A stretch of 64,000 nt of DNA from Flavobacterium phycosphaerae (GTDB lineage: Bacteria; Bacteroidota; Bacteroidia; Flavobacteriales; Flavobacteriaceae), in contig NZ_JAAATZ010000001.1 in assembly GCF_010119235.1 (NCBI RefSeq), positions 3,209,946 through 3,273,945 on the forward strand. The letters are read 5' to 3'. Position 1 is the first letter of the stretch; every line of letters begins with the position of its first letter. Shown here one piece after another: positions 36,819-57,383 of this stretch. The position numbers and the translations under genes were made by a program. The notes under the pieces were generated by a model, which was given only the letters and a program-made list of their open reading frames with translations, was not told where the DNA came from and made no database searches.

Positions 36819-36822
36819 GGTC

Positions 36823-37305
36823 TTATATTATGGTCATTTTAGTATAATTAAGCAAAAAATCTTTTAGTAAAAATAACAGTAATAGCAAAGCTGAAAACCC
36901 AGCTAAGGGGATTGTTTTTTCTTTCATTCCTTTTTGAAACAATAGGTACAATACAATCGAAAAAATCATGGAGAGTATAAAAAAAAGAATGTAATTAAAA
37001 TTTAAAAACAAGGGAGTAATACTAATGAAAAATAACAAATCTCCTAAACCGAAATAATGGGAAAAGGGGTTTAATAGCTTTCTGTTTTTTAAGCTCATAT
37101 ACAATACTAAAACTGCTATTATTACTATAAAAAACAACATATTGGTTATATATATAGAACTCATCAATCCGGATTTTTTATTAAATAGGAAAACAGAAAA
37201 CAAAAAAATCAATACAGGCAATACTACATGTATCTTCCTGAACTTCAAATCCTGAAATAGCACTATAATTAAGCTCAATAGCAATCCTGTAATAATAAAA
37301 TCCAA
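36823..37305 (-). CDS. Prepilin peptidase (type IV leader peptidase, A24 family, short form)
   Basis: A 160-aa membrane protein with about five helices. The two catalytic Asp motifs are present: FQDLKFRKIH (about residues 18-27, equivalent to DxxxRxIP) and the GxGD motif FGLGDLLFF (about 85-93). The N-terminal methylase domain of PilD/GspO is absent, so this is a peptidase-only form. It should cleave the four prepilin-like proteins of this operon. Confidence 0.85.
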   Translation of the reverse strand: MDFIITGLLLSLIIVLFQDLKFRKIHVVLPVLIFLFSVFLFNKKSGLMSSIYITNMLFFIVIIAVLVLYMSLKNRKLLNPFSHYFGLGDLLFFISITPLFLNFNYILFFILSMIFSIVLYLLFQKGMKEKTIPLAGFSALLLLLFLLKDFLLNYTKMTII

Positions 37306-37306
37306 T

Positions 37307-37741
37307 CTACTCCTTTGTTACTTCCGTTAATATTTTCTTATTGTCAATTTCCCATGTATTAAAGGCACCATCACTATCTAAATCAGAAACAGAAGTGGCT
37401 CTGGCCAAAAAAGAATCGTTGGTAGCATCTATAACCTCCACTTTATAAACAGCTTGTCCTCCTTGATCCACAGTCAACTCTTGTTCAAAACCTAACTCCT
37501 CAAGATTATTGCTGTATTTTGAATACCGGTAAAAATGGCTTTTTTCCAGCCCGTAAACTTGATTCAGCATAGCCTGAGCTTCTATGGCTTTAGCCTGACT
37601 GATAACCGCAGTTTGATTGGGTAAAACCATTAAAAGAATAATTCCAATTATGCACAGTACAATTAATATTTCAGTCATAGAGTAGGCTTTAACCATAGTT
37701 CCTTTAATTTTTTTAACCATTTTAATTCCTGACTTTTTCAT
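37307..37741 (-). CDS. Major prepilin/pseudopilin (GspG-like)
   Basis: A 144-aa prepilin with the motif VKA|YSMTEILIVLCIIGIILL: cleavage after Ala, Glu at +5 and a hydrophobic N-terminal helix. Start alternatives give leaders of 19 residues (37741) or only 4 (ATG 37696, MVKA). The short one matches the leader of the 403-aa protein in this operon. The globular part has YGLEKSHFYRYSKYSNNLEELGF and ends with SDLDSDGAFNTWEIDNKKIL, close to the calcium-binding tail of GspG major pseudopilins. Confidence 0.85.
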   Translation of the reverse strand: MKKSGIKMVKKIKGTMVKAYSMTEILIVLCIIGIILLMVLPNQTAVISQAKAIEAQAMLNQVYGLEKSHFYRYSKYSNNLEELGFEQELTVDQGGQAVYKVEVIDATNDSFLARATSVSDLDSDGAFNTWEIDNKKILTEVTKE

Positions 37742-37879
37742 CTTCTATTATAATTTAAGGATAAAATTTATTGCTTATTTAGCATCTGAATTCGCAATTC
37801 AGTGTTATTAATAATTTGACTTCTAATTAAAGGTTTTTTTTTAATTATACAAGGTATTTCCTAAATTAATACTATTCCT

Positions 37880-39001
37880 TTAATTTTTGATAATCTTACT
37901 TAAATCGAACATTGGAGCATACATCGATATCATTATAACTCCGACTATAACTCCAATAAAGATAATAATCATTGGCTCCAAAATCACACCAATCATTTTA
38001 GTTTGATGATTTATTTCTTCGTTGTATTGTTCTGTTAGTCTTTCAAACATAACATCTAATTGATTTACTTGCTCTGCTACCTCAATCATTGAAACCATTT
38101 TATTTTCGTATACGCTGTGTTTTTTCAGACTGTCACTTAAAGAAATCCCCTTGGTTACATCACCTTTAATGCTTTCGATTGATTTTTCAATAGGATAAAA
38201 ACCTATCATTTTTGAAGTTAATGATAAGGAGGTAATTAACGACGTTTTAGACGTAGTTAATAAATTCATAGATTGGCAAAACCGGGAAATATATATTTTC
38301 TTGATTAAATCACCAAAATAAGGTATCCTCAAAACAATTTTTGAGGTAATGTCCCTATAAGAATCTTTTTCTTTGAAGAGATAATGAAAAACAACTAATC
38401 CAGTTATTAATAAAAATAAAAACAGAAATAATGCTCCTGAATGATTTGATATTTTGATAATCATTTGAGTGCTTTTGGGTAGCTCGCTTCCAAATTGTTT
38501 AAAAACAGAACTGAACATTGGCACTACTTTATTCAACATAAAATAGAGTACGGAAATAGTAACCAACATTACTATACAAGGATAGGTTAAGACTGAGATG
38601 ACTTGGCGGCGCATTTGAATTTTTCTATTGAAAAATTTCTGCAATTCATTTAATACTTCTTCTAATTTTCGAGTTTCTTCACCAATTTGAATGCTGTAAT
38701 ATTCATATGGTGAAAATTGATTGGTACTGATCATAGCTTCACAAATGCTTTTACCCAAAACCACTTTTTCTTTAATATCAATAATGATGCTTTGCTCAAG
38801 TTTAGATTTGGCCTGGTGGCTTAAGATTTCCAGTGCTTTTTTAAAATCAACTCCTGATTTTAATAACATCCCCAATTCTCGATAAAACACTTCTTTCTTC
38901 TTGTCCGATAACTTTTTAGTACCGGTTAAAGATTTTAATTCAAAGTTAAATTCTGTTTTATTTGCCGAGATATTCTTATAGTTACTTAAATCAATACTCA
39001 T
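37880..39001 (-). CDS. gspF: GspF/PilC-family inner-membrane platform protein
   Basis: A 373-aa protein with two repeated T2SSF domains and three hydrophobic helices (about residues 135-160, 190-210 and 345-368). It has the family signatures FYRELGMLLKSGVDFKKALEIL and MVSMIEVAEQVNQLDVMFERLTEQYNEE, and ends PMIIIFIGVIVGVIMISMYAPMF. It couples the GspE ATPase to pseudopilin assembly. It starts one base after the stop of the upstream pseudopilin gene. Confidence 0.94.
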   Translation of the reverse strand: MSIDLSNYKNISANKTEFNFELKSLTGTKKLSDKKKEVFYRELGMLLKSGVDFKKALEILSHQAKSKLEQSIIIDIKEKVVLGKSICEAMISTNQFSPYEYYSIQIGEETRKLEEVLNELQKFFNRKIQMRRQVISVLTYPCIVMLVTISVLYFMLNKVVPMFSSVFKQFGSELPKSTQMIIKISNHSGALFLFLFLLITGLVVFHYLFKEKDSYRDITSKIVLRIPYFGDLIKKIYISRFCQSMNLLTTSKTSLITSLSLTSKMIGFYPIEKSIESIKGDVTKGISLSDSLKKHSVYENKMVSMIEVAEQVNQLDVMFERLTEQYNEEINHQTKMIGVILEPMIIIFIGVIVGVIMISMYAPMFDLSKIIKN

Positions 39002-39002
39002 C

Positions 39003-39491
39003 CTATTTATAGTTTTTCATTAATTCATTAGAATATACTTTTTTAAAAAACTTCAGATTCATCAGCTGTTGATTGACATTCAATTCCAAAGAAAGACGCT
39101 GAAAAACGATGCGGTTATTTTTGTTTTTAACTGTATCTATGATAAAATGTGTCAATGGAATTCTAAAAGTGTCTTGAAAACCATCTTTACTTCTTATGGT
39201 GTATTCATCAACACGCAGGTATTTTACATTAGCTCCCGCATAAGTATTAAAGACAATATTCTCATCATCCCTTGACATTTTCTCACTGTCAAAGATATCC
39301 TTATTTAAAGCATAAGTTAATCGGTTCATATCGGCAACAAATTGATTTTGATTCTTAAAATCGAGCATTCTTTCGGATAATATGCTAAAAACAATAAAAA
39401 CCAAACCAATCACTATAGCCGTAATGACCATGCTAAATGCTGCCTCTAATACAGAAAAGGCTCTCGCTGTTGCAGTCAATTTATTTTTCAT
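39003..39491 (-). CDS. Minor pseudopilin (GspJ-like)
   Basis: About 162 residues from the ATG at 39491; an upstream in-frame start at 39515 is less likely. The prepilin motif is ATARA|FSVLEAAFSMVITAIVIG, with Ala before the cut, Glu at +5 and a long hydrophobic helix. The C-terminal part is beta-rich (MNRLTYALNKDIFDSEKMSR... YLRVDEYTIRSKDGFQDTF), similar to GspJ-like minor pseudopilins. It overlaps the preceding pseudopilin gene by 11 bp. Confidence 0.75.
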   Translation of the reverse strand: MKNKLTATARAFSVLEAAFSMVITAIVIGLVFIVFSILSERMLDFKNQNQFVADMNRLTYALNKDIFDSEKMSRDDENIVFNTYAGANVKYLRVDEYTIRSKDGFQDTFRIPLTHFIIDTVKNKNNRIVFQRLSLELNVNQQLMNLKFFKKVYSNELMKNYK

Positions 39492-39837
39492 TTTGTTGCT
39501 GAACAAAAAAATCATTCTTAATAAACACTCCGGAACTGTCTTTATAGTTAATACTGAATTCCTGCAAATTACTGTTAACCCATTCCTGATGGATAACTAA
39601 ATTATCATTTGACATTTTTTCAATCGTATCGGGATTAACCTGAACCATATAATATATTTCTGCCAACCTGTTCCTAGAACCGTAAAATTTAGGAGAAGTT
39701 TTAGGAGTAAATACCGCTGCATAAACCAATACTGCCACATAAAGACATATAGCAATAATGCATAAAGCAATTACTGATTCCAAAATAGAATTAGCCGATA
39801 GTCTACAATACTTTCTTAAATATGCCATACGGTTCAT
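39481..39837 (-). CDS. Minor pseudopilin (GspH/I-like)
   Basis: About 118 residues from ATG 39837 (or 39828). The longer start at 39891 would read deep into the upstream gene. The prepilin motif is CRLSA|NSILESVIALCIIAICLYV with Glu at +5. The small globular domain (FYGSRNRLAEIYYMVQVNPD) has no clear subtype. It overlaps the 403-aa gene at its 5' end and the GspJ-like gene at its 3' end, so translation is coupled throughout. Confidence 0.72.
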   Translation of the reverse strand: MNRMAYLRKYCRLSANSILESVIALCIIAICLYVAVLVYAAVFTPKTSPKFYGSRNRLAEIYYMVQVNPDTIEKMSNDNLVIHQEWVNSNLQEFSINYKDSSGVFIKNDFFVQQQNEK

Positions 39838-41014
39838 TCTTGTTTTTAAATAGTGGTATGGAGATAAAATAGTTAGGTCTTTTTGTAACATCTATTTCTC
39901 CATTTATAATGCAGTTCTCATAATTTCCCGAGGAAGTTCGGCTAAAAATTTTATTAGTATATACCGAACCGTAAACACTACCGTATACCATCAATTTTCC
40001 GGTACAGTAAACATCACCTACTATTTTTGTATCTTCTTTTAGTACTATACTGTTATCATCAATATTATTCAATCGTGTACCAAATAACACCACAGCGCCA
40101 TAAATAGAACAGTTTTTATTAATCGTCATCTCACTCTTTTCATTGGAAGTATTATAAATAGCCATTACCGATGGATAATTAAGTATAACGTCATCTTCTA
40201 TCACAATCTTTTTAGTGGCAATAGCCTGAATATTCCCCTTGAAACCTTTGCTTATTTTAATTATTGGAGCCTTTATAATTACATCTTCTAATACATCATT
40301 AGCACTAATGGTAATTGAATCTTTAGCATATAAAATAAAATTCCCTTTAATAATTACATTTTCAAGTAGCGGTGAGTTCAACTCCACCTCAATAGTCTTA
40401 CTTAAAAAGGAATTAAAATAAATAGAGTCCCTACTCTTTTCTATATCTTTTAAAAAAAAGCCTGCCGATTTTTTTTCTTCAAATACTTTTTTAAAATCAG
40501 GACTTATCTCCGGTAAAACACTGGTGGACAAACCTATCCTTCCTATGGACTTCAAATTGCTCTGAGCACTAGTAATGTATTTTTCATCAATAAATTTACT
40601 AGGCAATAGTTTATCTCCAATTAAAGTTACATTACCAGAATAAGACAAATCATTAGAAAAATTGCTCAAATATAAGGCTGTTGTATTGGTGGCATAATGC
40701 CCTACAAAATGAGCAGATGCAATGGTGTCATTTTTTAAAATGCTGCTTACAACAATTACATTAAGCAACCCATGTGATTTCATCTGGTAGTTGGAGACAA
40801 TTCCGTTCTCTTTGTTAACCATTGTATTTTCTTCATCTCCTTGGGTAAGTGCATAGTTCAAAATTGATTCATTTTGAACATACATATCCTCTCTAGTGTT
40901 ATAGAAGGTATTGAGCATTGTATATAAACTAGAAAAATACAATAAGGCTCCGCATAATATTGAAACCAGTAAACAAACATAAACAGCATAGAGTAAACTA
41001 TTTGCCTTTACCAT
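39803..41014 (-). CDS. Prepilin-like protein with a bactofilin-like beta-solenoid domain
   Basis: A 403-aa protein. The N-terminus MVKA|NSLLYAVYVCLLVSILCGALLYF copies the prepilin leader and helix but lacks Glu at +5 (Tyr instead), as in tip-forming GspK-type pseudopilins. From about residue 200 there are repeating short beta strands (VIIKGNFILYAKDSITISAN, VIIKAPIIKISKGFKGNIQA, SIYGAVVLFG, KIVGDVYCTGKLMVYGSVYG), a pattern of right-handed helices as in bactofilin-like polymers. A tip protein with such a domain is unusual. Confidence 0.6.
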   Translation of the reverse strand: MVKANSLLYAVYVCLLVSILCGALLYFSSLYTMLNTFYNTREDMYVQNESILNYALTQGDEENTMVNKENGIVSNYQMKSHGLLNVIVVSSILKNDTIASAHFVGHYATNTTALYLSNFSNDLSYSGNVTLIGDKLLPSKFIDEKYITSAQSNLKSIGRIGLSTSVLPEISPDFKKVFEEKKSAGFFLKDIEKSRDSIYFNSFLSKTIEVELNSPLLENVIIKGNFILYAKDSITISANDVLEDVIIKAPIIKISKGFKGNIQAIATKKIVIEDDVILNYPSVMAIYNTSNEKSEMTINKNCSIYGAVVLFGTRLNNIDDNSIVLKEDTKIVGDVYCTGKLMVYGSVYGSVYTNKIFSRTSSGNYENCIINGEIDVTKRPNYFISIPLFKNKNEPYGIFKKVL

Positions 41015-41774
41015 TTGACTTCTCCTTTTTAGAAAATAATCTCTTAAAGAAATTATCTTTTTTAGCTTTAGGCTCCGGATTATTATTTGAGGAATTCATT
41101 TTATTATTTCCTCTTGTATCGTTTTCTTTATTGGAAGTAGCTTTAGTTTTGTCGGCTTTTCGTTTTTCTTTCTCTAATTGCTTATCCTTTTTCTTTTCAT
41201 CGCGCTTTATTTTTCTTTTAGCCTTATTTTCTTTTATTTTAGCTTCTCTGGCCAAATCCACTTGACTTGGTATTACTTTCTCGCCGTTATTAAAAGTAAC
41301 GGTGTCTTTTGAAATAAAATTTATCCACACTCCCTGCTTTTTACCTCTACTGTAACGTCCTTTTTCGATCAATTCTCCTCTATCACTATAATGAAAATTC
41401 ATTCCCTTTCTTCGACCATCATTCCAATACTGACTAGTAGCTAAGAATCCATTTGTATGCCAAGTTTTCCATAGACCAACTTTTAGCCCATTTTTGAATG
41501 TGCCTGATTCTGCTAACTGATTATTTAAATAAAATTTATCAAAAGTTTCATCAAGCAGTTCCCCAGCAATACCATTTTCTGAATTGTGAATAGCGCCGCC
41601 CTTAAACCAATAATAGACCCTGTCTGACATCACATCAGGCTTATTATCAGTTACATAAAACTCATATTTAAAATTACTATCCGTAATTCTTTTTTTAAGC
41701 CTAGGCTCTTGAAAAGAAAAAAATGATAAAACAACAACAGTCCCTATAACCAAATTTACAACTGAATCTCTCAA
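40998..41774 (-). CDS. MORN-repeat protein at the head of the secretion operon
   Basis: A 258-aa protein with an N-terminal hydrophobic segment (VNLVIGTVVVLSFFSF), perhaps a signal anchor, and toxin_MORN-type repeats: LAESGTFKNGLKVGLWKTWHTNG, YWNDGRRKGMNFHYSDRGEL and RYSRGKKQGVWINF. The last ~90 residues are highly charged and disordered (KENKAKRKIKRDEKKKDKQL). It overlaps the prepilin-like 403-aa gene by 17 bp and is the first gene of the minus-strand operon. Function unknown; MORN-like repeats often mediate contact. Confidence 0.7.
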   Translation of the reverse strand: MRDSVVNLVIGTVVVLSFFSFQEPRLKKRITDSNFKYEFYVTDNKPDVMSDRVYYWFKGGAIHNSENGIAGELLDETFDKFYLNNQLAESGTFKNGLKVGLWKTWHTNGFLATSQYWNDGRRKGMNFHYSDRGELIEKGRYSRGKKQGVWINFISKDTVTFNNGEKVIPSQVDLAREAKIKENKAKRKIKRDEKKKDKQLEKEKRKADKTKATSNKENDTRGNNKMNSSNNNPEPKAKKDNFFKRLFSKKEKSNGKGK

Positions 41775-41944
41775 AATTCTATTATTTTAAAACTTATGCA
41801 ATATAAGACTTTTAGGAAAAAAATAAAAATAAAGAAACGGGGCAATAAAATAATATTTACCTTTGAAAATAATACGATTTCTGTCCAAATAGCAACATAA
41901 TTTGCTATTTTTAAAAGCGTCAAGTTCATTGTATTTATTGATAG

Positions 41945-42967
41945 TACAGCGAAAAAGATTACCCTCCTTTTGGAAGTCTAGTTCCTAAACGCCACGGTGG
42001 CATTGATGACTATCGTTATGGGTTTAATGGTAAGGAAAAAGATGATGAATTAAAAGGTGAAGGAGTTCAATATGATTATGGATTTAGAATATATGATGCG
42101 AGGTTAGGTAAATTTTTATCTACTGACCCACTATTTAAAGGTTATCCATGGTACACACCTTATCAATTTGCGGGTAATACACCAATTCAAGCAATTGACT
42201 TAGATGGCCTTGAAGAGCGAATAATGATTCGCGAAATGTATGCTGGGGTAGTATTAAGAAGATATGTAATATTTGTTCCTACCTCTGAAAGGATAAAAGA
42301 AGGAGTAGACGATAAAACAGTAGCTATTTTTAAATATGAAACTAGCACACCAGAAGGTAAAAATGAGTTCAATGCGGCTCGTGCTAACCTTACTAGTCTT
42401 GAAGGGAGAAAACGATTAATGAGAGTATTCCAAAATAATTATCAAAAAATTAAAAAATTTGATCAAATGCCTGCGGATGATTCTCAAGCTTTAAATTCAG
42501 CAATGGCTAAAGGAATGGCCGACAAAAAGGTTTCAAATAAATATGTTACTAACATAGCTATTCAACCTTTTGTTGTTCAATTTAAAACTGACTGTAGTAT
42601 TATTGACTCATTTACACCAATAGAAAAGGAACAGCTCGAAAAAGCTGCAACTATTTCAAAAGGAACCGGAGCGACACTTAATATAGTAGGTGTTTCAAGT
42701 GGAGTGCCAAGCAGATATACAGGTAGAAGTTCTGATGGAAGCATAGTTAAAGGTGAGCTAAATGTAGATAATAATAATATTCTTTCTAATGATCGAGCAA
42801 ATTTTATCAAACAAGTGTTAATAAAAGATTATGGGGTTGATGAAAGTAAGATAACAATTGGAGTTCCTGAAGTTGAAAAAAAATCTGAAAATGATACTGA
42901 AAATAAAAATAATCAAAGAGCTGAAATTAGAATTATTTTATCGGATGATTCATTCAAAACAAATTAA
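41945..42967 (+). pseudogene. Silent Rhs C-terminal cassette with OmpA-like tip
   Basis: An open frame of 340 codons follows an in-frame TAG at 41942-41944 and has no start codon in the Rhs core part (first ATG at 42224) and no promoter that I can see. It begins in the Rhs core ([15 protein letters not shown]), continues through DDYRYGFNGKEKDDELKGEG and the core end FLSTDPLFKGYPWYTPYQFA and LDGLEER, then changes to a unique tip. The tip contains an OmpA-like domain: VVQFKTDCSIIDSFTPIEKE, NDRANFIKQVLIKDYGV and NNQRAEIRIIL match the peptidoglycan-binding pattern. It stays in frame with the expressed Rhs gene through the shared repeat. I read it as a stored alternative C-terminus, not a random fragment. 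Confidence 0.8.
41965..42024 (+). repeat. 60-bp inverted repeat, left copy (in the silent cassette)
   Basis: These 60 bases are identical to the reverse complement of 46444-46503. Before them, after a two-base mismatch (41963-41964), six more bases match. After them identity drops sharply. A short palindrome, GCCAC-G-GTGGC, lies at 41991-42001. Confidence 0.97.
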
Positions 42968-43877
42968 TTGTTTTTACATTCTATTATTAATTTCAAATAA
43001 TTTAATTTCTCAAAAATGGAACATTTGTATTTATGATAATGATTTACAATTCAAAGGGCATTATTCGAAGCCATTGGATTCAATTTCTTATTCCGATAAT
43101 AATTTTTTTAATTTTGATGAAAAATTATATTTTTCGAATTTTGAAGGATGTTACATTAGATTTTTTCCGAGTTATCCGGATGATGATATAGATAAGAAGA
43201 TTGATTCATTATTTTTTAAAAGAGATTTATCGAATCAATTTGAACTTAATGTAGCATCAAGTAAATATTCATACAAACAATTTGAGGAATTTTATTTAAT
43301 AGGCGAGCCATTTCCTGAATTAAGTTTAAATTCAGGCTTTTCATCTGAAATTATTATACCAGATGGGAGATGGATTAAACTAGATAGGTATAAAAATAAA
43401 GTCTATGATTTTGAAATTAACGATTTTAAATTAAATGGCTTTATCTATCTTTATTATCCTCTTTCAAACAAGGTAAAAAGGATTAGCCACTACACTAAGG
43501 GTTTTTTTTCGAAAATCAACATTAACCTTTTTAAAAATGGTGAGGTAAGGTATATTGATTATGAAAATTTTGATTCGGATAAAACTCAACCATTATATAT
43601 TCTTAATGACTCAAATGGTTTAAAAAGACATATTATTTACCCTAAACAGTTTGATATTATATATGAGAAAGGTAAAATAATAAAATACTATACGATAGAC
43701 AATGATTTTTTTAACGGAAAATACTTTATAAAAAATGAAAATGGAAGTATAATTGAAGAAGGAAAGTATAGGCATGGCAGGCGGAAAGGAATAATCAGAT
43801 ATTATAACGATAACGGGGAGCTAGATAAAATTGAGTATTATTTGTTGGGAATTAAACTATGGAGTAAAAAAAATTGA
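42945..43877 (+). CDS. Secreted MORN-repeat protein paired with the silent tip
   Basis: About 310 residues from the ATG at 42945, which overlaps the end of the silent cassette by 23 bp. The longer start at 42858 reads a Lys-rich stretch in front of the signal peptide and is unlikely. A signal peptide is followed by SQKWNICIYDNDLQFKGHYS. The C-terminal ~100 residues have MORN-like repeats (FFNGKYFIKNENGSIIEEG; KYRHGRRKGIIRYYNDNGEL). It may be the immunity or partner protein of the OmpA-like tip. It resembles the MORN protein at 40998-41774. Confidence 0.65.
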   Translation: MIHSKQINCFYILLLISNNLISQKWNICIYDNDLQFKGHYSKPLDSISYSDNNFFNFDEKLYFSNFEGCYIRFFPSYPDDDIDKKIDSLFFKRDLSNQFELNVASSKYSYKQFEEFYLIGEPFPELSLNSGFSSEIIIPDGRWIKLDRYKNKVYDFEINDFKLNGFIYLYYPLSNKVKRISHYTKGFFSKININLFKNGEVRYIDYENFDSDKTQPLYILNDSNGLKRHIIYPKQFDIIYEKGKIIKYYTIDNDFFNGKYFIKNENGSIIEEGKYRHGRRKGIIRYYNDNGELDKIEYYLLGIKLWSKKN

Positions 43878-44131
43878 TTGACCATCAGAAACTTTATATC
43901 AAAGTGTAATTGTTTGTGTTAATTTCAAAGCCATCACTTCGAATGATTTCAATACATTTAGGGAAAATTATATAGAAAAGTACTAAGAAAAAGTTGTCGA
44001 TTATTTTTCATCTTTGCTTGTTAAAAACACTCACAACTATAAATGCTGGAAATCTGAGGGGACTTATAGTACAAAATTTTTAGCTTAAACTACTCGATAA
44101 TCATTTACATATAATTATTACTTACAGTAAT

Positions 44132-45175
44132 CTAATATCTCTCCAGCTTACTATGCACTTTTTCTATCTCCTTATCAATATATACTTGGGCATAGTGAAC
44201 ATAGCGATTAAAGGAACTGCTGGCATGACTATGCCCACTAATTTTACGTACTAAGTGTTCAGGCATACCAAGAATTAGTAGTGTAGTAATGGCGGTTCTT
44301 CGCATCATATGCGAACTCATTTTATCACAAAAACGGTCCTTGCTTTCTTTGCTACTTGCTATTCGTTTGGTTATCCCTTGTTTCTCACGGGATATTTCTA
44401 TTGGAGCTGTAAACTCGGCTAATTCACCTATACGCTTTAGGCTTTTGTTAAAATTGAAAAGTGTTATTGGTGCAAAAAGTGCCGTCTTACTATTTTTGGA
44501 CTGGTATTTTTGAAAAATTAAAATAGCATAGTTAGCCAGTTTGATTGAACTACTCGTTTTGGTTTTTTTTGATTTTAATTTTAAATACCAATCATCGCCT
44601 GATTGCTCAAAATTTTTATTGGTGAGTAAAAAAATATCTGAATAACGTAAACCCGTGGTACATCCAAAAACAAATATATCTTTCACTCTTTTTAGGCTTG
44701 GTGTTAATTTGGTTTCAAATTCCTTATCGTGAATTAGAAATTTTAATTGCTCGGGAGATAATACTAGGATGTCAATTTCTTCTTTCCTGACATAAAATTG
44801 TTTATGAAAGTCACCGGCATAAATATCTTTCTCCAGTTTTAAGTAATTAAAAAATACCCGTATCACTTTGATAGTTGCCCCAACGTAGTTGTCAAAACAC
44901 CCCTTTTTATATAGAAAGTCCGTAAAGTTCTTGTAAAATTTTTTCCAATAATTTTTTTCAGAAAGCAATTCTTTCTTTGTGAGTTTTAAGATATCGCAAA
45001 CTCTGAGTTCTGTGTTGGTTTCTTCTGAAAATAATATGAGATTTTTAAGTACATATATATAATTATCTATGGAGCTTTTGGCTATGCGTTCCCCATTCTT
45101 TTTTAATCGTTTGCCCGATTCGGATTCTTTAATAAACTGTTTGAATAAAGGAATTAATGGCTTGGGGGTTTTCAT
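44132..45175 (-). CDS. Tyrosine recombinase between the inverted Rhs tips
   Basis: A 347-aa tyrosine recombinase: N-terminal SAM-like DNA-binding domain (about 5-125) and catalytic domain with Arg177 (TTGLRYSDI), Lys204-206 (KSKKTKTSS), His289-x-x-Arg292 (SSHMMRRTAI), His315 (ISGHSHASS) and nucleophile Tyr325 (FNRYVHYAQ). All core residues are present, so it should be active. It lies inside the segment bounded by the 60-bp inverted repeats, and not beside a tRNA, a place typical of DNA invertases of this family in Bacteroidota. It could also be a leftover integrase; position and orientation favour the invertase reading. Confidence 0.88.
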   Translation of the reverse strand: MKTPKPLIPLFKQFIKESESGKRLKKNGERIAKSSIDNYIYVLKNLILFSEETNTELRVCDILKLTKKELLSEKNYWKKFYKNFTDFLYKKGCFDNYVGATIKVIRVFFNYLKLEKDIYAGDFHKQFYVRKEEIDILVLSPEQLKFLIHDKEFETKLTPSLKRVKDIFVFGCTTGLRYSDIFLLTNKNFEQSGDDWYLKLKSKKTKTSSSIKLANYAILIFQKYQSKNSKTALFAPITLFNFNKSLKRIGELAEFTAPIEISREKQGITKRIASSKESKDRFCDKMSSHMMRRTAITTLLILGMPEHLVRKISGHSHASSSFNRYVHYAQVYIDKEIEKVHSKLERY

Positions 45176-45205
45176 TTTTCATTTTTTATAATAGAATAAA
45201 AAAAC

Positions 45206-45239
45206 AAAGAAAAACTATTCTTAACGAATAGTCTTTCTT
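45206..45239 (-). terminator. Terminator of the Rhs operon
   Basis: A stem of at least 7 bp (45214-45220 with 45226-45232, extendable by imperfect A/T pairs) with a 5-nt loop. On the minus strand it ends in a T-run. It separates the Rhs-associated 95-aa gene from the recombinase gene, which therefore needs its own promoter. Confidence 0.75.
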
Positions 45240-45272
45240 GTAGGTCTATTTTTAAGTGATGTAAACACCTTT

Positions 45273-45560
45273 TTAAAACGTTAAATCATATATAATCAGA
45301 ATAAATATTAAAAATAGATTAATATAAAATAATGTTAAGTATAGCACATAATATTTTTTACATTTTAAAATAGATTTTTTGTCCTCAACATTAATCACAT
45401 TTTGTAAACCTGAATTTAAAATTTTTAAAGAAACTCTCTTGTAAGTGATAATTAAACCTTTTCTGTTTAAATCCAAGTATAAAAGATTAACAAAAAAATT
45501 TATTCCTATTGAAATGATAAAGATTATAACTATAATAGATACATATATTTTCATGTTCAA
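45273..45560 (-). CDS. Small two-helix membrane protein downstream of the Rhs tip (possible immunity protein)
   Basis: A 95-aa protein with two strongly hydrophobic segments: IYVSIIVIIFIISIGINFFV at the N-terminus and YYVLYLTLFYINLFLIFILI at the C-terminus. Between them is a short basic, partly helical loop with a KCKKYY segment. It starts 15 bp after the Rhs stop and precedes a terminator. Such a small gene just after an Rhs tip is usually the cognate immunity gene. A membrane immunity protein would suit a membrane-acting tip. This is inferred from position. Confidence 0.55.
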   Translation of the reverse strand: MNMKIYVSIIVIIFIISIGINFFVNLLYLDLNRKGLIITYKRVSLKILNSGLQNVINVEDKKSILKCKKYYVLYLTLFYINLFLIFILIIYDLTF

Positions 45561-45575
45561 TTTTTAATTAAGTTA

Positions 45576-48500
45576 TTACGACTTTTTCTTTTCTGTCTTT
45601 TTCTTTTCAGGTTTTTTAGCTTCAGGTTTTTTTGCCTCAGCTTTTTTATTTTCAGTTTTTTTAGTCTCCGTCTTTTTCTTTTCGGCTTTATTAGTTTCCA
45701 CTTTTTTAGTTTCTTTTTTATCCGGAGTATTTGAGTTAGATTTTTCTTGTTCAACTTGCATAGTGTAGTAATTTTTAGCAGCGTCAATTGCTTTCTTTAA
45801 ATCTTTAACAGGAATACCTGCTTCTTCTGCCCAATCTTCAATTGTATCACCTAGTTCTTCCCAAGTAACAGTTCCGATTAGAAAAGAATAGCCAACGGTA
45901 GCATGAAACTCAATACCGGCACCACCTCCTACTTTTGGAATAGCACCTCCAGCTCCCATTTTAGTATCATTGACATGCCCGTTTTTGTCTTGTTGTAATG
46001 AAATTTCTAAATCACCACCGTTGCCCATTGCTGATCCTCCCAAACTAACTCCCCAGCCTCCTAATTGTTCTGAGTTTGTAACATTAGGAAATAAACTAAC
46101 AGACAATCCCGCGCCAATTGATACCCCCGCACCAACTCCACCTTCAGGAGTTACGAATAACGAAATTCCATTAGGAGCTACAACAACAGAAACACCAATA
46201 GCCACTGATACGATGAGAAATGTTGCTCTTCCACTTATTGTAACTTTAGCGGCTTCTAAACCTTCTAGCTCAACCCGATCAATAACCCTATTTTCACTAA
46301 ATGCATAGGGACTATTCCAAGGATATTTTGCAGTTAAAGGATCAATCGCAAAAAACCTCCCTATTCTCGGGTCATGCATTCTAAAATCATAATTCAAAGA
46401 ATTTCCTTCTCCCTTAATCTCATCATCTTTCTCCTGTCCTTGGAACCCATAACGATAGTCATCAATGCCACCGTGGCGTTTAGGAACTAGACTTCCAAAA
46501 GGATAGTAATCATTGTAGGCAATAACATCAGCATTAAAGAATGGTATACTCGCATATGGCTTGTAAGGTATCTTCTTATCATTAATAACAACTAGTACAT
46601 TTCCTAAATGGTTTTTAAGCTCATATCTTTTGTCTCCAACAAGGTTTTTATAATTTTTATAGGAGAATGGTCCGGTTGGATCAAAAATAGCATGATTATA
46701 ATCCAAATAATTAGGAATACCATTACCATCTGTATCCATCGTGTATTCGGCTCCTGGGATAGGATAGTTAACATATCCCGGACCTCCTTCGATGATTTCC
46801 CATGTTTGATAGCCATCTCCATCATCATCTACATCCAAATAATTCGGGATACCATCAATAGCCACATATTGGTTTCCTGATGAATTAGTAATATCAGTAT
46901 TTACGGCGTCAGCAGGATTACCATCACCATTTGGATCTGAATATTCATTAATGGTTAAAATACCATCACCATCATCATCTGTATCCAAATAGTTAGGGAG
47001 ACTATCTATTATACCACTATTGGTATTTAGTGTTGGATAACTATCGGTATTTATAGCATCATAAGGAATATGATTTCCGTCAGGATCAGCACTTTCATAA
47101 AAAGTATATAAACCATCATTATCATCGTCATTATCTAGATAATTAGGATTACCATCAGTATCAGTATCCGTTGACAAAATACCTCCATCCGGTGCCGGAC
47201 CTTCATATAAAGTGAATAAACCATCACCATCATCATCAGAATCAAGATAATTTGGAATACCATCAGGATTTGTTGCTGAAGCTGCATCGGTATTCAGTAC
47301 TGTACCTGTATTAGGATTATGATCGCCGTCATTATTAGCTCCTTCATAAATGGTATTAATTCCATCACCGTCATCATCAGCATCCAAATGGTTAGGGCAA
47401 CCGTCCCCATCTGTATCTATTTCAGCATAAGTTACTGAGGTAGGCGAGTCAAATACAACTTCATATATATCATAAAGTCCGTCTTCATCTTGATCTAACA
47501 AGCATGGACCATATTGTCTTACTGCTCCATTTTGGTTCATTATTGCATTTGAGGATGGGCTTCCAGTTGGGGATAATGGATTCGCATTATCATCAAAATT
47601 ATAATTATCAACAATCAGATTATTAAAGTTATAATTAAAATAACAAACATCAAAATCATACATGGTACTGAAATTCCCTATTCTATTACTGCCTGTTGGT
47701 ATAGTTATAGCTCCAACAGTGGGAGTATTGGATGGAACCCAATTTGAAGTCAAACTTTGATTTTGAGCTCCATTAATTTTAAGTACCCCAGATGTTGAAG
47801 AGAAGTTAGTAGTAAAGTCAAGTTCAAAATTACTCGGCACGTTAGCAACTGCAGTAGCTTCATAGGAGTTAAGTATAGTATTAGTTGGATCAATGCTGTT
47901 AATTATTCTTGAATATTTATTGATGGTAACTCTTGGTTTATAAGAATCCGCGGCATTTTTTCTAACCGAAAGTTTTACTTCTGTAGTAACATCATAAATT
48001 GGTTCAGGGACTACTTTTAGGTTTAATATAGATGTATTAGTATTTGCAAAATCAACTCTCAAAGTAGCAGAGTAAGCATTAAATCTCGTGTTAGTTGCAC
48101 TATCATTTACTAGTACATCAACATTTGCGGCATTATTAGGAATAGTAAACTCGACTCCTCTGTAGGCTTTTCTTATTCTTACGGTAGGCTGATAACTTGA
48201 ATTAAAACTAGTCAACGGAATAGAAGTGACAAATGAACTTACTCCTCCAACCATTTTGTTAAATACAAGATCACCAGCAGCTATAATAGTCCTAATTCCA
48301 TAATAGACACCATTGGCAACAAAACCAACCGTTACTCCATTATATTTATTAATATCTCCTGTTATCGTATATTCAACCGATCCTGATTGATTCAGAGCAA
48401 AAATAGTATTAGATGGCGCCATTGAAGTAGAAGGGCACCCCGTTGGCCTTTGAACAGAAGTAGTATCCCCATTCTGTACTAGAGTAAAACAAGATGGAAT

Positions 48501-51500
48501 TGGAGAAAGTGTACTAATATTAATTCCATTTACAGGAGCAGTAGCATTAAAAATTAATTTCGATAAATCAGTATAAATGGAACTTACTGGTATTGATAAA
48601 TTGTTATTAATCGTAACACTAGTATTTAATGAAATGTTAGTTGGTAGTGGATTGGTAATCATGGCCGCATTAAAATTCCATGTAGCTGATTTATTTAACC
48701 CAAAGTTTAATGAATAATCTCTAACTACAGGGTCTCCAATACAAGATGACATTCTTGACATGCTATTTTCAGATGGTAATGGTGGAACCTGAATTTCGCA
48801 CTTTTCTGCAACCGCATTTTCTCTATCATTTACCAAAGTAGATTTTCCATAATCTTTAATAGGCCCCTCATATAAAGGTACACTACTATACACTACGGTA
48901 TTTTTTTCTTCTAGCCCTACTCGGCTACTACCATAAATATCGTGTTCTTTTAAAAATAAATTTAATCTACCTCGCTTATTTTTTAAATCATATACCCCAA
49001 GCACATTACCTTGAGCATCTCTACAATAGTATGTTGTATTACCGGATTCAGAAAAATTTTGATGTATAGATTTAGCTATTCTATTACCAAGACCATCATA
49101 TTCAAAATCAACATAAGTATAAGAATCTCCTGAACCTTTTATAATCCCTTTAACCTTCCCATCAACTCTCCATTTTATGGTTAGCTGTTCTGATTTATCT
49201 TGGATTAACTGACCTATTTGATCATAAATATAATTTCCTGTATTATTATCATCAGGGTTATAAACATAGTCCGGATATATTAATTGGATTTGATGAATTT
49301 GATCTTCTAGGTCATTTTCAAATTCTGATTCATTAGCCGGAGAAGATTCATCATGAACCATAGTTAATTTATTATTGTTCGATTGATAATCATATTTTAA
49401 ATCATCCATTACATCAATGGAACCATCATTATTTAATGCTTTCCTAAGAAGTGTTTTAATATTCCCATTCCTATCATAAGTATAATTGGATAAATAGCTA
49501 TCCGTAAAACCACCTGAACCATTTTCTTTAGGTTTTATAGCATTAGAGGTCAATGAAACTATTCTATTAAGCTGATCATACGTATAATTATTTTTTTGAA
49601 CTGAAAGAACCTCTTCTTCATTAATTCTAACACCAGTAGTCATTTGTTTAATATTACCATTAAATAAATTCCTGTTATTTCCTGGAATTGAATTGTCTCT
49701 ACTAAACATTAAGGGAGCGTAACCAGCATCACCATTATCTCCTTCAATAGCTCTATAATCCGTAAATTGATCATTATCAAAATAACTTAGAGAATAACCG
49801 TAAGCATCTTTTGTTTTAGTTTCTCCCGACATATTGCCATCATTCCCCATATCATTATTAGGTGACATTATATTTTCTCCATTAACCGATTTTATCCAAC
49901 CTTGTAAGGTATAACTATAGTCTTGTCCTTGGACTTTCTTATCCCCTATTTGGGTTCTTCCCAGTGGGCCGTGTGGATAGTATTTATACGCCGCATCTTC
50001 TTCCCAAACAACTCCATCAGGTGAGGTTTCAACATTGAGTAACCTATTATCCGCATCATAATTATATTTATGGATAAATTGGTCTATTTTATTTGGTTGA
50101 AAAGTCACCTTATTAACATTTCCACTGATTAAATCATAATCATAAACTACTCTTTTAAGATGCTTTTCACAGTCGTTGAGTTGTCCTGTTTCCTCATTAA
50201 TTACACCTGTAGGGCTACAAGGTAAATTCTTTAAAGAAGTAATATAAGTAAGCAATTCTTTGACATTACCATGAACATCATAATTGTAAAAAATTGCATT
50301 GGTAAATTTATCAAGAACATCTAGTTGATCATAGTAAAAAATTCCTGTAACCCTGTTTCTGTTGTTATGAGCCGGAATAAAATCAGGTGATGTATTGGTT
50401 ACAAATAAACTTGAAGCAAATATGCTGGGCGATTCCACTAGAGGATCTTCTGTATAAACCGTAATAGTTACTTCTCTTCTAATATTTGTGGTTCCTGAAA
50501 AGTCATTCACTGCATTTCCTCCGAATATTAACCTTCCTTCATCACTTATATTATAATCTCCAGGCTTAACAAATACTTCGCCTGCTTCAATTATTCGCCC
50601 TAAAAAATCATAAACCGAATAGCTGTATTTTTCTCTTCCTGTTTCTACATCTACAATCCGTTGGTTATCATTTTGAGAGGCTATAATCCTGCCTAAAGCG
50701 TCATATGCAAATCTTGTCATGCCACCATCAGGTGTATTCTGCCATACTAATTGGTTTAGCGAATTGTACTTATACTCAGTTTTAAATCCATGAGCAGGGG
50801 TTAACAAAGGGTTTTCAATAGCATTAGGATGATTTCTGAAATTATTAATTGAAGCGTTTAAACTAACACCTAAATTAGATACTCCCTCAGGTGCTACAGT
50901 TTGAATTAAATTTCCGGCTTGATCATAATAATATAAAGTGTGTTGATACTCTTGATCTCCATATGTCATTTTGAAATTTTCAACAGCATATTTAATAGCT
51001 TGTTCAATGTACTGTCTAATAAATTCTTTACGCAAATATTGTATATAGGCATTATAAGAATCCAACTGATATGTTGCTGTTACATTAGCCATTAATTCTT
51101 TACAAGGATCTTGAAGAGTAATCGCTGGAGAATAGGCAGGCATTGGACCTGGTGGACATCCATGAGGGCCAGCCATATATATAGTATTTACATAATCATT
51201 CCAATATACTCTCTCGGGGTCATCTTGATTTTCTAAACAATAGACCAAATAGTTGTTTATAACCTGGTTTATTTGGTTATAACCATAATGCAAATCGGTT
51301 TCTCCAAACTGCGCTATAGTCAGAAAGTTTGGATCATCAGCAGACTGAACATTTAAAGTACTCATGTAATAAACATAAGAATCAACTACATATTGTAAAC
51401 TCAAATCACAAAATGCTTGTTGGGGCATTACAGTAATGGTAGGCAAATTATGCTCAGCTAAATACTTCGTATACTTTGTGTATTTTTCTTCACAAGCTAC

Positions 51501-54500
51501 TGGAGCTACCGTTTGTGGGATGCATTCACAAGCGGCTGTATAAGGCGCATTTACAGGTGGAGCATCGCCTCTATTTATAGTTATTGGTGATTGATTAATA
51601 ACTGGGTCACCTTTAAATGAAACAACTCCTTCAGCAGAAGCACTATTCCTGTTGCTTAAAGGATCATAATCGTTGCTTATAAAATTACAGAAACGACTAC
51701 CAATCCACTCTCCCTGAGTATTAAACTTAGTATAATTAGATATTAGTATGTGATTAAGAACATGAGTAATACCAACATGGTCAACATAGCTTACATTTCC
51801 AAAAAATGTATCTGTCATATCAATATAATTAATATGGTCTACATCGGGCAAATGCAATTGAATAGTAATATTCGAAGTATTTGATGTATCCCCATTATTA
51901 AAATATAACATAGCTCCTCCTGTGGTATTATAATATAAACCATAGTTTATAAAAGGACCAACTGGAAGATTGTAATTTGTATTCTGCCAAGCAACAAGGT
52001 AATCTCTTAATGCCTGAAAATGAGACTCTAAATTGCATTGCTGAATAAATGTAGAAATGACAGCATTACTTTGTATTGGACCATAAGCAGTATATTGTGT
52101 CTGATTATTATAAGTAGCTATGGAATGATTTCCTGGCAATATTAAAAAATTCAGAACATCTCTAAGTCTATTCTCATATGCAACTTCTTCTTCTTGAGTT
52201 ATTGGACATGATGTGAGATGTGGATTACCCTCAGAATCACATACATCACCAATACCATCATTATCCGCATCAGCTTGATCGGCATTCTTAATTGTTGGAC
52301 AATTATCACAATTATCAAAAATACCATCTCCATCAGTATCTACTGTACCACAATTTCCATTATTACCATCACAGATATCTCCAATACCATTCCCATTATA
52401 ATCCCATTCGCCACATGGAGAACAACATAGCAAATACAATGGTTTTTTAGTCTCACCAGGACAATATTGCCCTTGACAATTCGTTAAAGTTCCTCCTACT
52501 GTAATTGTTCCGTTATCAACGTTAAAAATACTCGTTATATAATTTCCGGCTTCATTGGTTGAATTTTGAGGTTCATAAATATAATTATCAACGGATAATG
52601 AAATCAAATCTTGTGGTATTATACCATTATCAATAAAGCTTTCTGTCCAAAATTGCAAAGCAAGCATACTGGTAGAATTCTTAAATATTTGAAATAAATA
52701 ATGATCTGTCTGTTGAGTTCCGGTCCATGTAACATTATCAGAAGCAGTTGAGCCAAACATAGTTCTTAAAAAACTACTCATATAAAATGGGTCACTCGTT
52801 AAATCATAAGCGCTATCAAATAAATGATTTGTCTGTAATAAATGATTATAAAGTGCTTTAAAAGCATCTTGAAATTGTATTTTTTTATCATTACAGGCTG
52901 TTACTACTGGCGTAATAACTTCACCTGTTCCTGACTGTCCCTCAAGATGACAAGCACCAATTTTAGCAATCGTTTTTCCAGTTAATATAACATCTCTAAA
53001 AGTCCCTGAACCTTGTTGTATCCTGGCAATAATCTGGAAACCATAAATCGGTGGATTAGCCGATAAGTTAGAGGTAAGTACATCATAATACAATTGGCTA
53101 CAAGCAATAATATGCCAATCATTACTGCTATTACCCATTGAATAATTATTCCAGCTTAAATTAGCTGAAGCAGGAAGTGTCAATACCAGTTGTGATGCAG
53201 AAGCAACATAGCTTGGCACTATAGGGGCAAAAGTAAAGTTTAAATCCGAACCATTTATAGTAACTCCCATAGTTGGGGTTAAAGTAGTTGGCATAGGAGT
53301 CCCTGTAAGTTCATGAAATAAATTTGCTGTCAATCCCTGCCCTATTTGATTCCAGCCTACTAAACTGGAAGATGTTGTCAAATTAACATCTTCAAAAAGA
53401 CCACTTATAAACAAGTTTAAATCATTTATCAATGGACAATTTCCCGTTTGTAAATAATATTGATAATTATTAAGAGCTAACAACTGATTTAAAGAACCAC
53501 CTAAATTTCCAGAATCATACCCAAAATCAATTGGAATGAACTTCTTAATCTTAGCACCATATGCCGCAGCTTGTGGCAAAGAACATAAAGGTATAGTTGT
53601 GGTTGAAGTTGGATTATTTGCAGCTATATAAGTATTGATTTCTTCATAGGTATTATTTCCGTTATATGCAGTATAATTATTGATTACATTCGTAATATTA
53701 TCTGAACCACCTGTCCCTATACATCCGTTGAAACAACCATTTGATTTGGCATAAGCATTAATAAAAACATGCTTGATTTTTTGTTTTAAAGAAATGTATA
53801 AATTTTTATACGTATTCCATATTCTATTTTTAATGATTTCTTGGGCATTAGGTGACAAGCTTGTAAAACTTGAACTCGTTAAACTGACATCATTGAAATT
53901 ACATACCTGAATTGCGTTACATCTAGCCATAATAACCGCAGCTTGGAACATTTTGGCGTAATTTAATGGGTCAGTAGCTAATCCGTTTTGGTTTAATAAA
54001 TAGGTTTCGTATTGACTATTTAAAGCTTCAAGCATTATACTTTGTCTCCAAGCAAGTAGATTAGGGGTCTCTCCATTTATAATTTGAAAATAAGGGTCAC
54101 CGCTATATATATTTGGATTGCTCATCATTGGGCTTGCTAAATCAAATAAGCCTGCTTGGTAAGCCTTCTGATATGTATCTAAATAATTCAAATAACCATC
54201 ATACTCATCTGAATTTAAAAACCTTGTAACAGAACCCGTCTCAGTGGTTACACCAGCATTAACTGAAAATTGTTTTACAACTGTTTTTTTTATTAATTGA
54301 CATAAATTGTTAGAATATTCTAAATAACAGTACTCTGGATGGTATTTAACAAGGGACTTTGCCCAAGACTCCTTCCATTTGCCAATGAAATCATCAAGTA
54401 ATAGTAAATCCTGAGGATAAACGTAACCACCCGTTTGAACAACGGCGGTAGAAACTATTTGAGGTGTATATCCACTAGGGTTGGTACTCGTCACACCTGT

Positions 54501-54554
54501 ATATTCAACTTCAATTTGTGATAAACTTCCGTCTGTATCGGTATACATAGGCAT
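45576..54554 (-). CDS. Giant Rhs/YD-repeat protein, expressed version
   Basis: 2992 aa without its own signal peptide. In order: a large N-terminal region; thrombospondin type 3 calcium repeats (about 711-785); YD repeats (about 1200-1850, e.g. [33 protein letters not shown]); a beta-rich region (about 1890-2330); a second block of type 3 repeats (about 2365-2620, IPNYLDxDDDGDG); and the Rhs core end ([14 protein letters not shown] about 2648; [19 protein letters not shown] about 2694; [20 protein letters not shown]). The variable tip (about 2767-2992) is Gly-rich and hydrophobic, then has an acidic/helical part and a Lys/Glu tail. It is probably one protein with the preceding 949-aa ORF, split by a frameshift near 54555. 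Confidence 0.88.
46444..46503 (-). repeat. 60-bp inverted repeat, right copy (in the expressed Rhs gene)
   Basis: A perfect reverse-complement match of 41965-42024, covering Rhs residues about 2684-2704 ([18 protein letters not shown]). The palindromic core is at 46467-46477. The tip-side sequence beyond it is only loosely similar to the silent cassette. Confidence 0.97.
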
Positions 54555-57286
54555 TGGATGTCTCCAATTAAAATCGTTTCCTGGGTATTATTTACTTGTC
54601 CATTGTAAATAATTTGATTATCTTCATTAAAAACACTCAATAAAGTAGAACTTGCATTAGTACTATCACTATTTGCTGGATTATCGTTTATACTATTAAC
54701 CATACCGGGTGTCATTCCATATTGACCACCTGGACTAACATCATTTTCTAATGATTTTTCATTTATTGAACAACTTGATGCAAAAGCACTTCCACAAATT
54801 TTATCACAAGTATTTCTCAATAAATTCCAATCATTAATCATACTAATCACTTGATGATCAACATCCGTTTGACTTATAAGTTGTCCAAAATTAATTGACT
54901 CATCTTCATTCTCATTCAAATTATAAACTTTTATACTACAATCAGATTCATTTTGAATAAATATGGTTGTATTAGTTTGAGGAACATTATAAATGTTTTT
55001 AATTTGTTTTAAAACATATTCACATTTACTCCCTATACTTTGTTCACATTCACTACAAGTAGTATTACAATCAATATTTAATTGAGGGCTAAAACCATCC
55101 GGGCTTATATAACATTCTTTTCCGATATCCTTATTAGTCAACATTTGCACATAATGATCCGCATAATTATTGAGAGTTTCTTTGTTGACTTTCAATTCTT
55201 TTACCAGTGAATAATTACCAGTATTTAGAAATAATGGTGAAGGAGTGAATCCTTGTGAATAATTAACTAAAGCACCAGTTCCTATACCATATGTTCCAAT
55301 TACCATTGAATTGTGAGGGTGTAATAAATCATTATTACATTGATCTTTTAAACCAATCTGCAAATCATATACAAATGAATATTTCTGTGGGCACTTTTCT
55401 GGAATAAAAACATTCTTATTATAAATATTATATTTAAAAGTGTGGTCAATATTGTTGCCCGCTACACCTAATTGACTTGAAAGTGTTAAAATATCATTAT
55501 AATTGAAAAAATTAGAGGATGTGCTTAGTTCATTATTATCTAATTCAGTATCTCCGTCATTTGCATCTGCTTTATTTAAAAGGTCTACAGTTATTTTTTT
55601 TAAACCCTCTTCTGATTCCTTTAACGGGATTAAACTTTCAGGGCTATTTCCTGCTAATGCTGTAGCTATAGTTCTACCCTGTGGATCAAGATAACTTACA
55701 CTTACTTGACCATTTGGATCAACTGCAATATTCTTTTTATAATGAGATACATATCCTACTTGATAACCAAACAAACGGTTAAGCTCTTCCTGATGAGGAA
55801 TAGAATAAAAATATTGCATTTCATGATTTGTAGACAATTGATGAGCTGGGCCAACGCCTCCTTTTCTGGATATTCTACCGGTGTTATCAGGAGTATATTC
55901 TATTTGACTAAATGGAAATTGGAAAGCATCAGGTATATAATTTCTAAAGGGGCTATCAAAAAAGTCATTGTTTTTTGAATAATATTTACTTGAACCACTA
56001 TTGATATTCATTATACCGGCAGGCACTCCACATTCACCCTCTTTAGTATCCCAGTCAAAATCTAAATGGGAATATAACTCACCGTTAGAATTTTGATTTA
56101 AATTTTTAAAATAGCGAATGTAATCCTTTTTTATCGGCACTGGCAATACTTCTAAGGCAGCTCTCCCTTGTGTATCATATATAACTTCTCCGACTACTAT
56201 ATTTCCTTTATCAGTATTAACCTTGGTAACAGTCTGTCTGTTACGTAGAGATCCGTCAAAATAACTTACCACTTCCTTTTTCTTTCCATGCTCAGCATAG
56301 CTAGCCTGAAACTGCCAATTTTTTTGATTTTCGTGACCGTTAATAGAAATAAAACTATTCTCCCATGTTGAAATTTTTGTTTTATCATCCACTCCAGAAC
56401 TCCAAGGTCCATAAAACACTTTGTCTACAGAATCACTATTATCTACAAATCGACCAACGCCCCTAACTCTATAAATAACATACCCTCTGGAATAAATCAG
56501 AGGAATTTGATAGTATGTTTTATCGGTTTGTACTCTTGTATTATTTAATTCAAAATCTCTTGAAGAAAAATCAATTAAATCAGCAGCTAAAACACTTCCG
56601 TCCTCAGCATAATTATCAACCCAAGTCCATTCTAATTCATATTGTAATGCACCTGTCAAACTTGGCCAATTAAAATTAAGGGCTAGAGGCATCCCATCAG
56701 AGTCGTAGGCAATTTGTGAGGTTATAGTGGGTTGTTGATTCGTTATTAAATAATATCTTTCAGTATTAAAACCCAACTCTATGGATACATTTTGATCTAC
56801 TGTATCAGTTGTCGTGCCATTAGCAAGATTAGTTACTTGAACATTTTCTACTTTTAATCTGACACCATAACTGTTTACAAGTTCGTAAACTGACAAATCT
56901 GCAAAATTTGACGAATGGCCATATGGGTTATACTCAGCTGTCAACTCTTTTGAAAATGAATTTGCTGTATCATCATCCCCATTAGAAAGTAATGGAGTAA
57001 TTAAAGCTGTCACGGTAACTTTAACCCATTGAAATGGTCCAATTTCATTGTCTATCTTTAATTTCGCATAAGCTTTTGGGACAATTGAAATATGATTAGG
57101 CATTGTATATTGAGGATCCCTTAAGTATCCTTCCATATGATTATTAATGTCAACATATGTCATTGTGACTTCAGGCGCAGTGTAGATATTTTTTTGACTA
57201 AAAACTGAAAAATTAGTACATAATAACAAAAAGACAAATACTATTTGCTTTTCTATTTTACTTGCAGAAAATAAAAAATAATTCAT
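54491..57286 (-). CDS. N-terminal part of the Rhs protein (secreted, DUF6443-like region)
   Basis: About 931 residues from the ATG at 57286, which gives a proper signal peptide (to FSVFSQ); an upstream start at 57340 is possible. It contains FN3-like strands (about 215-330), then [41 protein letters not shown] and [17 protein letters not shown], the typical first YD-like units of Bacteroidota Rhs proteins. The frame stops 64 bp inside the next ORF. Adding one base near 54555 joins it to the 2992-aa frame (ILIGDIQ then MPMYTDTDG), giving one exported protein of about 3,920 aa. Confidence 0.8.
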
Positions 57287-57383
57287 AAAAAAAGTCTTTT
57301 TTATAGTTAACACTAATGAAGTAACCTCCATAAAACTCATACTGGAAATAAAACTATTGAAGCTATATGATTTTTCATATTCC

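Follow-up and report, generated by a model that had tools for sequence, protein, structure and literature searches.

Can a giant Rhs gene exchange the sequence encoding its C-terminal tip by inversion of a DNA segment? The question is raised by a locus of Flavobacterium phycosphaerae lying in the 64,000-nucleotide stretch analysed here (the window), which forms the last 64 kb of the 3,273,945-bp contig NZ_JAAATZ010000001.1. A perfect 60-bp inverted repeat connects a giant Rhs gene on the reverse strand with a start-less Rhs cassette on the forward strand. Around a tyrosine recombinase gene stand two tips, A and B, tail to tail, and an open reading frame (ORF) follows each of them. The locus is very probably a switch in which site-specific DNA inversion changes which C-terminal tip a single giant Rhs protein carries. 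Its features are listed below; C1 denotes the numbering of the same contig.

41965..46503, no strand: invertible segment, 4,539 bp including the repeats; exact reverse complement at C1:20235
41965..42024, forward strand: left arm of the repeat, exact 60 bp, Rhs core codons
46444..46503, reverse strand: right arm of the repeat, exact 60 bp, within the Rhs gene
41924..41964, forward strand: outer flank of the left site, a degenerate GTTCTT (GTTCAT) and GATTACCC; keeps its place upon inversion
42025..42967, forward strand: start-less cassette, the remaining Rhs core and tip B with a weakly OmpA-like C-terminus; continuous with the body in the contig-start copy
42858..43877, forward strand: ORF that follows tip B (start uncertain), a candidate immunity gene; MORN-like by eye only, without Pfam match
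44132..45175, reverse strand: tyrosine recombinase, 347 amino acids; Pfam Phage_integrase, E-value 5.4e-13
45273..45560, reverse strand: small hydrophobic membrane protein (by eye, from the translation), candidate immunity gene of tip A; without Pfam match
45576..46247, reverse strand: tip A (joined in the window state), glycine-rich beta domain and Lys-rich repeat tail
45576..54554, reverse strand: C-terminal part of the Rhs body, core and tip A, an ORF of 2,992 amino acids; PF05593 RHS_repeat, TIGR03696 core, YD repeats
54491..57340, reverse strand: N-terminal portion of the Rhs body, with DUF6443; an ORF of its own in the window copy

Both states of the locus in one assembly

The first 42.3 kb of the contig repeat window 21658-64000 as a dovetail (C1:1 corresponds to window 21658, and window 64000 to C1:42293), with single-base indels between the copies growing denser towards the contig tips. 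This is an untrimmed circular overlap, as in failed circle closure. The sole structural difference between the copies is that 41965-46503 appears exactly reverse-complemented at C1:20235, where the window orientation is absent. From C1:18739 to C1:32853 the inversion is the only difference. No letter differs inside the segment, and the five mismatches of the alignment all lie outside the 60 bp. Those adjacent to the repeat, at 41963-41964, remain with the flank in both copies, which places the crossover within the 60 bp. In the contig-start copy the Rhs body continues in frame into tip B as a single ORF of 3,959 amino acids, and the stored pair consists of tip A and the membrane gene. Both fused states are assembled: inversion at the repeats exchanges the 3′ end of a gene that is otherwise constant.

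The Rhs/YD repeats and the core domain typical of Rhs polymorphic toxins are present (PF05593, TIGR03696 for the core and TIGR01643 for the YD repeats). The left core has no start of its own, stop codons lying directly upstream. The 60-bp repeat occurs four times in the genome, two copies in each copy of the contig-end overlap, and forms the start of a 264-bp alignment between the two Rhs cores, with 72% identity (189/264); outside the 60 bp, identity falls to about 63%.

A first-pass annotation, made from the window's letters alone, had described the perfect repeat, an intact tyrosine recombinase gene between the tips and an equal codon phase at the two repeats. The repeat was confirmed at both positions, the recombinase by its ORF and Phage_integrase match, and the codon phase by the fusion of body and tip B in the other assembled state. 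Its prediction that inversion would bring the OmpA-like tip and its gene behind the Rhs body matches the arrangement at the contig start; it had held that finding no opposite orientation would refute a switch, and the same genome assembles the opposite state. Other descriptions need amending. The giant gene is there, but its body is split over two ORFs in the window copy and intact only at the other contig end. The OmpA-like character of tip B rests on a weak Pfam match (E-value 0.0014) and on two homologues carrying PF00691, and the “MORN” gene behind it is a 339-amino-acid ORF supported by no Pfam family.

Recombinase family and inverted Rhs cores

Relatives of the recombinase were collected from one genome per species, in a scan that prefers relatives sharing 8-residue words with the query. 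The best 80 loci were taken and 79 kept, L099 being a chance match; some come from one isolate (e.g. L047/L050 and L055/L071) and the loci are not fully independent. Rhs cores lie within the examined flanks of 71 of the 79, and in the remaining eight a contig end falls within about 1.3 kb of the recombinase gene. There are no cores in 8 loci, one in 17, two in 35, three in 7, four in 3, five in 6 and six in 3 (one N-gapped half core of L030 is merged in these counts). At most one core per locus has 200 or more open codons upstream, which is how we define a body (L065 has only 238).

At least two cores are present in 54 loci and the arrangement is inverted in 51 of these, with the recombinase between the cores in 39 and outside them in 12. 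By contrast, none of ten Rhs-core clusters in relatives without a close recombinase is inverted (Fisher test against 51/54, 1.9e-9). These control clusters, each of at least two cores within about 12 kb and read by eye, come from eight genomes with no recombinase match at 1e-30. Two genomes, G024 and G042, were excluded from the control as they carry the recombinase; G042 has one inverted cluster (C26) and one direct pair (C15), and a cluster in G024 (C36, cut at the recombinase) has two direct cores. In an even draw of the family the recombinase was found at E ≤ 1e-60 in 11 of 298 other genomes. Seven loci of this set repeat loci of the main scan, two new ones (L130 and L134) are inverted, L140 has one core, and the pair L137/L141 is inverted across contig ends. 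The recombinase family is linked with inverted Rhs cores.

The repeats and the recombinase occur together across Flavobacteriaceae and in Chitinophagaceae. The self-contained flip-flop proposed in the first-pass annotation fits the window, which has one invertible segment. Beyond it, 19 of the 79 loci have three to six cores, and the flip-flop would thus be the simplest form of a shufflon-like family.

Where the recombinase gene lies inside the segment, it has the direction of the Rhs body in 11 loci and the opposite one in 10 (18 of the 39 loci of this type have no body in the stretch examined); where it lies outside, it keeps the same relation to the body in 9 of 9. On a quick recombinase tree orientation changes seven times, against a mean of 7.1 for shuffled states, and with no tree signal its inheritance is not visible. 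The opposite orientation in relatives, proposed earlier as a check, is seen in a species pair with syntenic flanks: between Flavobacterium sp. Root420 (L023) and F. pectinovorum (L024) the flanks are 86-90% identical on both sides and the recombinase is reversed. L028 and L037 are also opposite; their outer flanks are 79% identical, and on the body side they share just short matches. The orientation is the same within L036/L053 and within L048/L055. We note that in a genome assembled as a single 3.35-Mb contig (G118) both contig ends fall within one locus of the recombinase family: the end carries an orphan core and the recombinase (L137), the start a body with its tip (L141). Comparison of the contig ends found no overlap, and mixed orientation may have broken this assembly as well.

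Proposed recombination site and probable agent of the inversion

Residues R177, K204, H289, R292, H315 and Y325, which we take to be catalytic, are invariant or nearly so (at least 97%) in 75 aligned recombinases; the alignment omits L071 (stop), L081, L082 and L090 (matches in pieces) and short matches. The predicted fold (predicted local distance difference test score, pLDDT, 88) resembles Tn1549 integrase, XerA, XerH, Cre and lambda integrase in a fold search. A sequence search of the PDB with the recombinase gave 0 matches, and the NCBIfam match to XerA/integron integrase scores 28 bits, below the cut-off of 220. A serine invertase of the Hin/Gin/Mpi type is excluded by the Phage_integrase match, the conserved tyrosine-type residues and the fold. 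Two loci hold two recombinase copies, inverted to each other in L066 (a 6.7-kb contig with Rhs cores at both ends) and direct in L058. A stretch of about 560 bp, 75-82% alike, lies near the recombinase in nine loci (L033:7415-8075, L040:9323-9897, L050:3311-3860, L058 in two copies, L060, L064, L065, L066 and L082).

The identity of inverted partners, measured over 41 loci and the window, climbs at −61/−60 from the YGF anchor, at GATTACTATCC, and peaks from −53 to −38, third codon positions included. In 17 of 41 loci, two of them at a contig edge, the longest exact run shared by partners starts at −61/−60. Position −44 falls within that run in 30 of 42 cases, and its length is at least 20 bases in 40 of 41 loci (five in L092). 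The order TACTAT is used for the YY codons in 29 of the 32 recombinase-associated bodies, against 5 of 20 control cores (p 1.9e-6, ignoring relatedness; counted by eye, with a control that mixes bodies and orphans). GTTCTT, which we presume to resemble a boxA-like sequence, precedes CCTTTTGG in 12 of 32 bodies (11 at −24; 0.5 expected from single-base shuffles) and in 47 of 80 orphans (21 at −41/−40 and 19 at −24/−23; 1.5 expected likewise). The window orphan has a one-off version, GTTCAT (41924-41929). We read the conserved TACTAT/GTTCTT stretch as part of a putative recognition sequence. The two distances of GTTCTT from CCTTTTGG are fixed and 17 bp apart, the near position being occupied mostly in bodies and array orphans and the far one in orphans of two-core loci.

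The tyrosine recombinase would recognise sites in the Rhs core codons around DYYPFG and just outside them, and cross over within the shared repeat. The 4.5-kb segment would then flip, so that the Rhs body is joined in frame to the stored tip, followed by that tip's downstream gene, while the previous pair would be stored start-less on the opposite strand; each tip would move together with its own small gene. That this recombinase catalyses the flipping is what we infer.

Several observations weigh against such a switch for Rhs toxins. In some loci, e.g. L033, L043, L048, L063 and L071, the longest exact run lies away from the proposed site, and by eye no recombinase-binding arm pair or clear dyad was found. 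Three of the 54 multi-core loci (L039, L057 and L068) have direct cores only. A few relatives have an interrupted recombinase, by a stop in L071 and in pieces in L081, L082 and L090. When 148 of 158 tips and the window's two were scanned against Pfam and PADLOC, at least 104 of these 150 had no Pfam match, as deduced from tallies, and neither tip A nor tip B gave a confident toxin match.

The inversion could be real and yet the work of RecA-type homologous recombination between the repeats, the recombinase being a bystander or relic, as those interrupted genes might suggest. Fusion of main and orphan rhs genes in Salmonella has been proposed to proceed by homologous recombination (PMC3967940, available text), and the longest exact repeat, 60 bp here, extends up to 223 bp in other loci. 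We regard this explanation as unlikely. In many loci the longest exact partner run is just 20-30 bp, the inverted layout follows the presence of the recombinase (51/54 against 0/10), and its catalytic residues have been kept throughout the alignment; nor does homology need TACTAT and GTTCTT to be conserved at the DNA level.

It is very improbable that the two orientations reflect an assembly artefact or a true duplication. The copies do sit at opposite ends of a contig, regions prone to assembly errors, but the overlap is a dovetail of the kind left by failed circle closure, the inversion junctions are about 17-25 kb inside the contig tips, and C1:18739 to C1:32853 differ by the inversion only. 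Both orientations also occur in the species pair L023/L024. If the assembly was made from long reads, a repeat of 60 bp would be too short to mislead it. The dovetail at both contig tips is the reason for rejecting a true duplication.

Least credible of all is that the recombinase, although an integrase-family protein, belongs to a mobile element or phage inserted by chance among Rhs tips, since no relative of it was found among 27 viral-contig pattern matches and Rhs cores accompany it in 71 of 79 loci, the other eight being cut by a contig end.

Candidate Rhs effectors, known systems and possible export

Single or few tips match PT-HINT, Ntox21/23/35/43, WHH, LHH, GH-E, Tox-PL-2 and RES; further matches include colicin DNase, CdiA tRNase, lysozyme, glucosaminidase, Tlde1, YkuD, CHAP and others. 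Pfam matches of the tips span 35 families, 25 of them among the matches listed, and PADLOC gave three NsnC models, each in one tip. The first-pass annotation had left open whether the Rhs proteins are effectors or surface proteins; the toxin-domain matches in tips of other loci favour effectors. Tips A and B are putative antibacterial toxins. Tip A is predicted to consist of a beta-rich domain and a disordered Lys-rich tail (pLDDT 73). Its fold search returned no match at E ≤ 0.001 (best VapD, E 2.1e-3), so that no function is claimed for it. A 15-bp tandem repeat (window 45568-45722) encodes the Lys-rich tail.

A co-directional ORF of at least 50 codons begins within 150 bp downstream of 154 of 158 tips, versus 72 for the opposite strand, and the protein beside tip A has two hydrophobic stretches by eye. 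The small gene accompanying each tip is most likely its immunity gene. As a flip alters the tip and the neighbouring gene at once, sibling cells in the other state may be open to attack if the stored protective gene remains unexpressed. Switching of a tip together with its putative protective gene poses a puzzle for kin recognition.

Tyrosine-recombinase inversions in Bacteroidota include surface, capsule and hsdS switches, which like the present locus invert DNA between inverted repeats. Bacteroidetes DNA inversions are described in PMC5903667, the available main text of which contains 0 occurrences of Rhs. Similar in layout is the R64 shufflon, in which the Rci tyrosine recombinase switches the C-terminus of PilV. 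The two share a constant N-terminal gene, alternative C-terminal segments, inverted sites and a tyrosine recombinase (PMC3414803). The R64 target is a pilus adhesin, whereas here a giant Rhs gene is targeted, together with paired downstream genes, and in 39 of the 51 inverted Rhs loci the recombinase lies inside the segment, unlike in R64. We call the locus a shufflon-like switch for putative Rhs tip/immunity modules.

Jackson 2009 (PMC2935791) attributed Rhs orphan tips to C-terminal displacement, and Koskiniemi 2014 (PMC3967940) accounted for main/orphan fusion in Salmonella by duplication and homologous recombination. Those systems resemble ours in having start-less tip/immunity pairs beside a full rhs gene, whose effector is altered by tip exchange. 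Their fragments lie downstream and recombine by homology; here they are inverted and accompanied by a recombinase, and both states are seen. The stored tip sits on the opposite strand, not in the same direction as orphan rhs genes of C-terminal displacement. In Ornithobacterium hominis and Bergeyella cardium, also Bacteroidota, an Rhs gene is likewise accompanied by many displaced tips together with immunity genes, which is explained by displacement (PMC6421346, PMC13183296); unlike here, no recombinase or inversion is described in the available parts of these papers. Zhang 2012, in its available part, treats cassette recombination in general and reports XerC/D genes adjoining polyimmunity loci. 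PMC10353427 and PMC7073777 contain nothing on Rhs tip inversion in their available text. The remark in the first-pass annotation that it knew of no described Rhs tip switch of this form agrees with our literature search, which found none but misses most subscription papers and is no proof of absence.

Rhs tip exchange has so far been ascribed to homologous recombination or displacement, whereas here a recombinase family accompanies inverted tips in many species. Tentatively, this may be a Bacteroidota recombinase family dedicated to Rhs toxins, which would flip two-tip loci, shuffle up to six tips and could, via directly repeated sites, excise and take up tip/immunity cassettes in the manner of an integron, with a type II-like system exporting the products. 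Such a family would supply the enzyme-driven tip exchange hitherto lacking in work on Rhs. No whole cassette moved to a new position between species was seen among matches of at least 450 bp and 75% identity outside the recombinase. The nearest to shared cassettes are 754 bp in L074/L090 (86%, core and part of the tip), 819 bp in L080/L090 (88%, flank and core) and 1,410 bp in L036/L098 (96%, tip end into the recombinase region).

A type II secretion-like cluster, including pilin-like genes by eye, occupies window 32465-41774 on the reverse strand, beside the stored side of the locus:

33499-35418, reverse strand: secretin
35415-36818, reverse strand: GspE
37880-39001, reverse strand: GspF

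At least one gene of the secretin, GspE or GspF type occurs in the examined flanks of 17 of the 79 loci, on the orphan side in all eight that also show a body. The intact Rhs copy starts with a hydrophobic, signal-like stretch (by eye), and no PAAR or VgrG match was found among the window proteins scanned, which do not cover the whole genome. Export of the Rhs protein through the neighbouring type II-like system is no more than a fair guess. At the outer edge of the locus a gene for 258 amino acids (window 40998-41774), with MORN-like repeats by eye and without Pfam match, has matches in 21 of the 79 loci.

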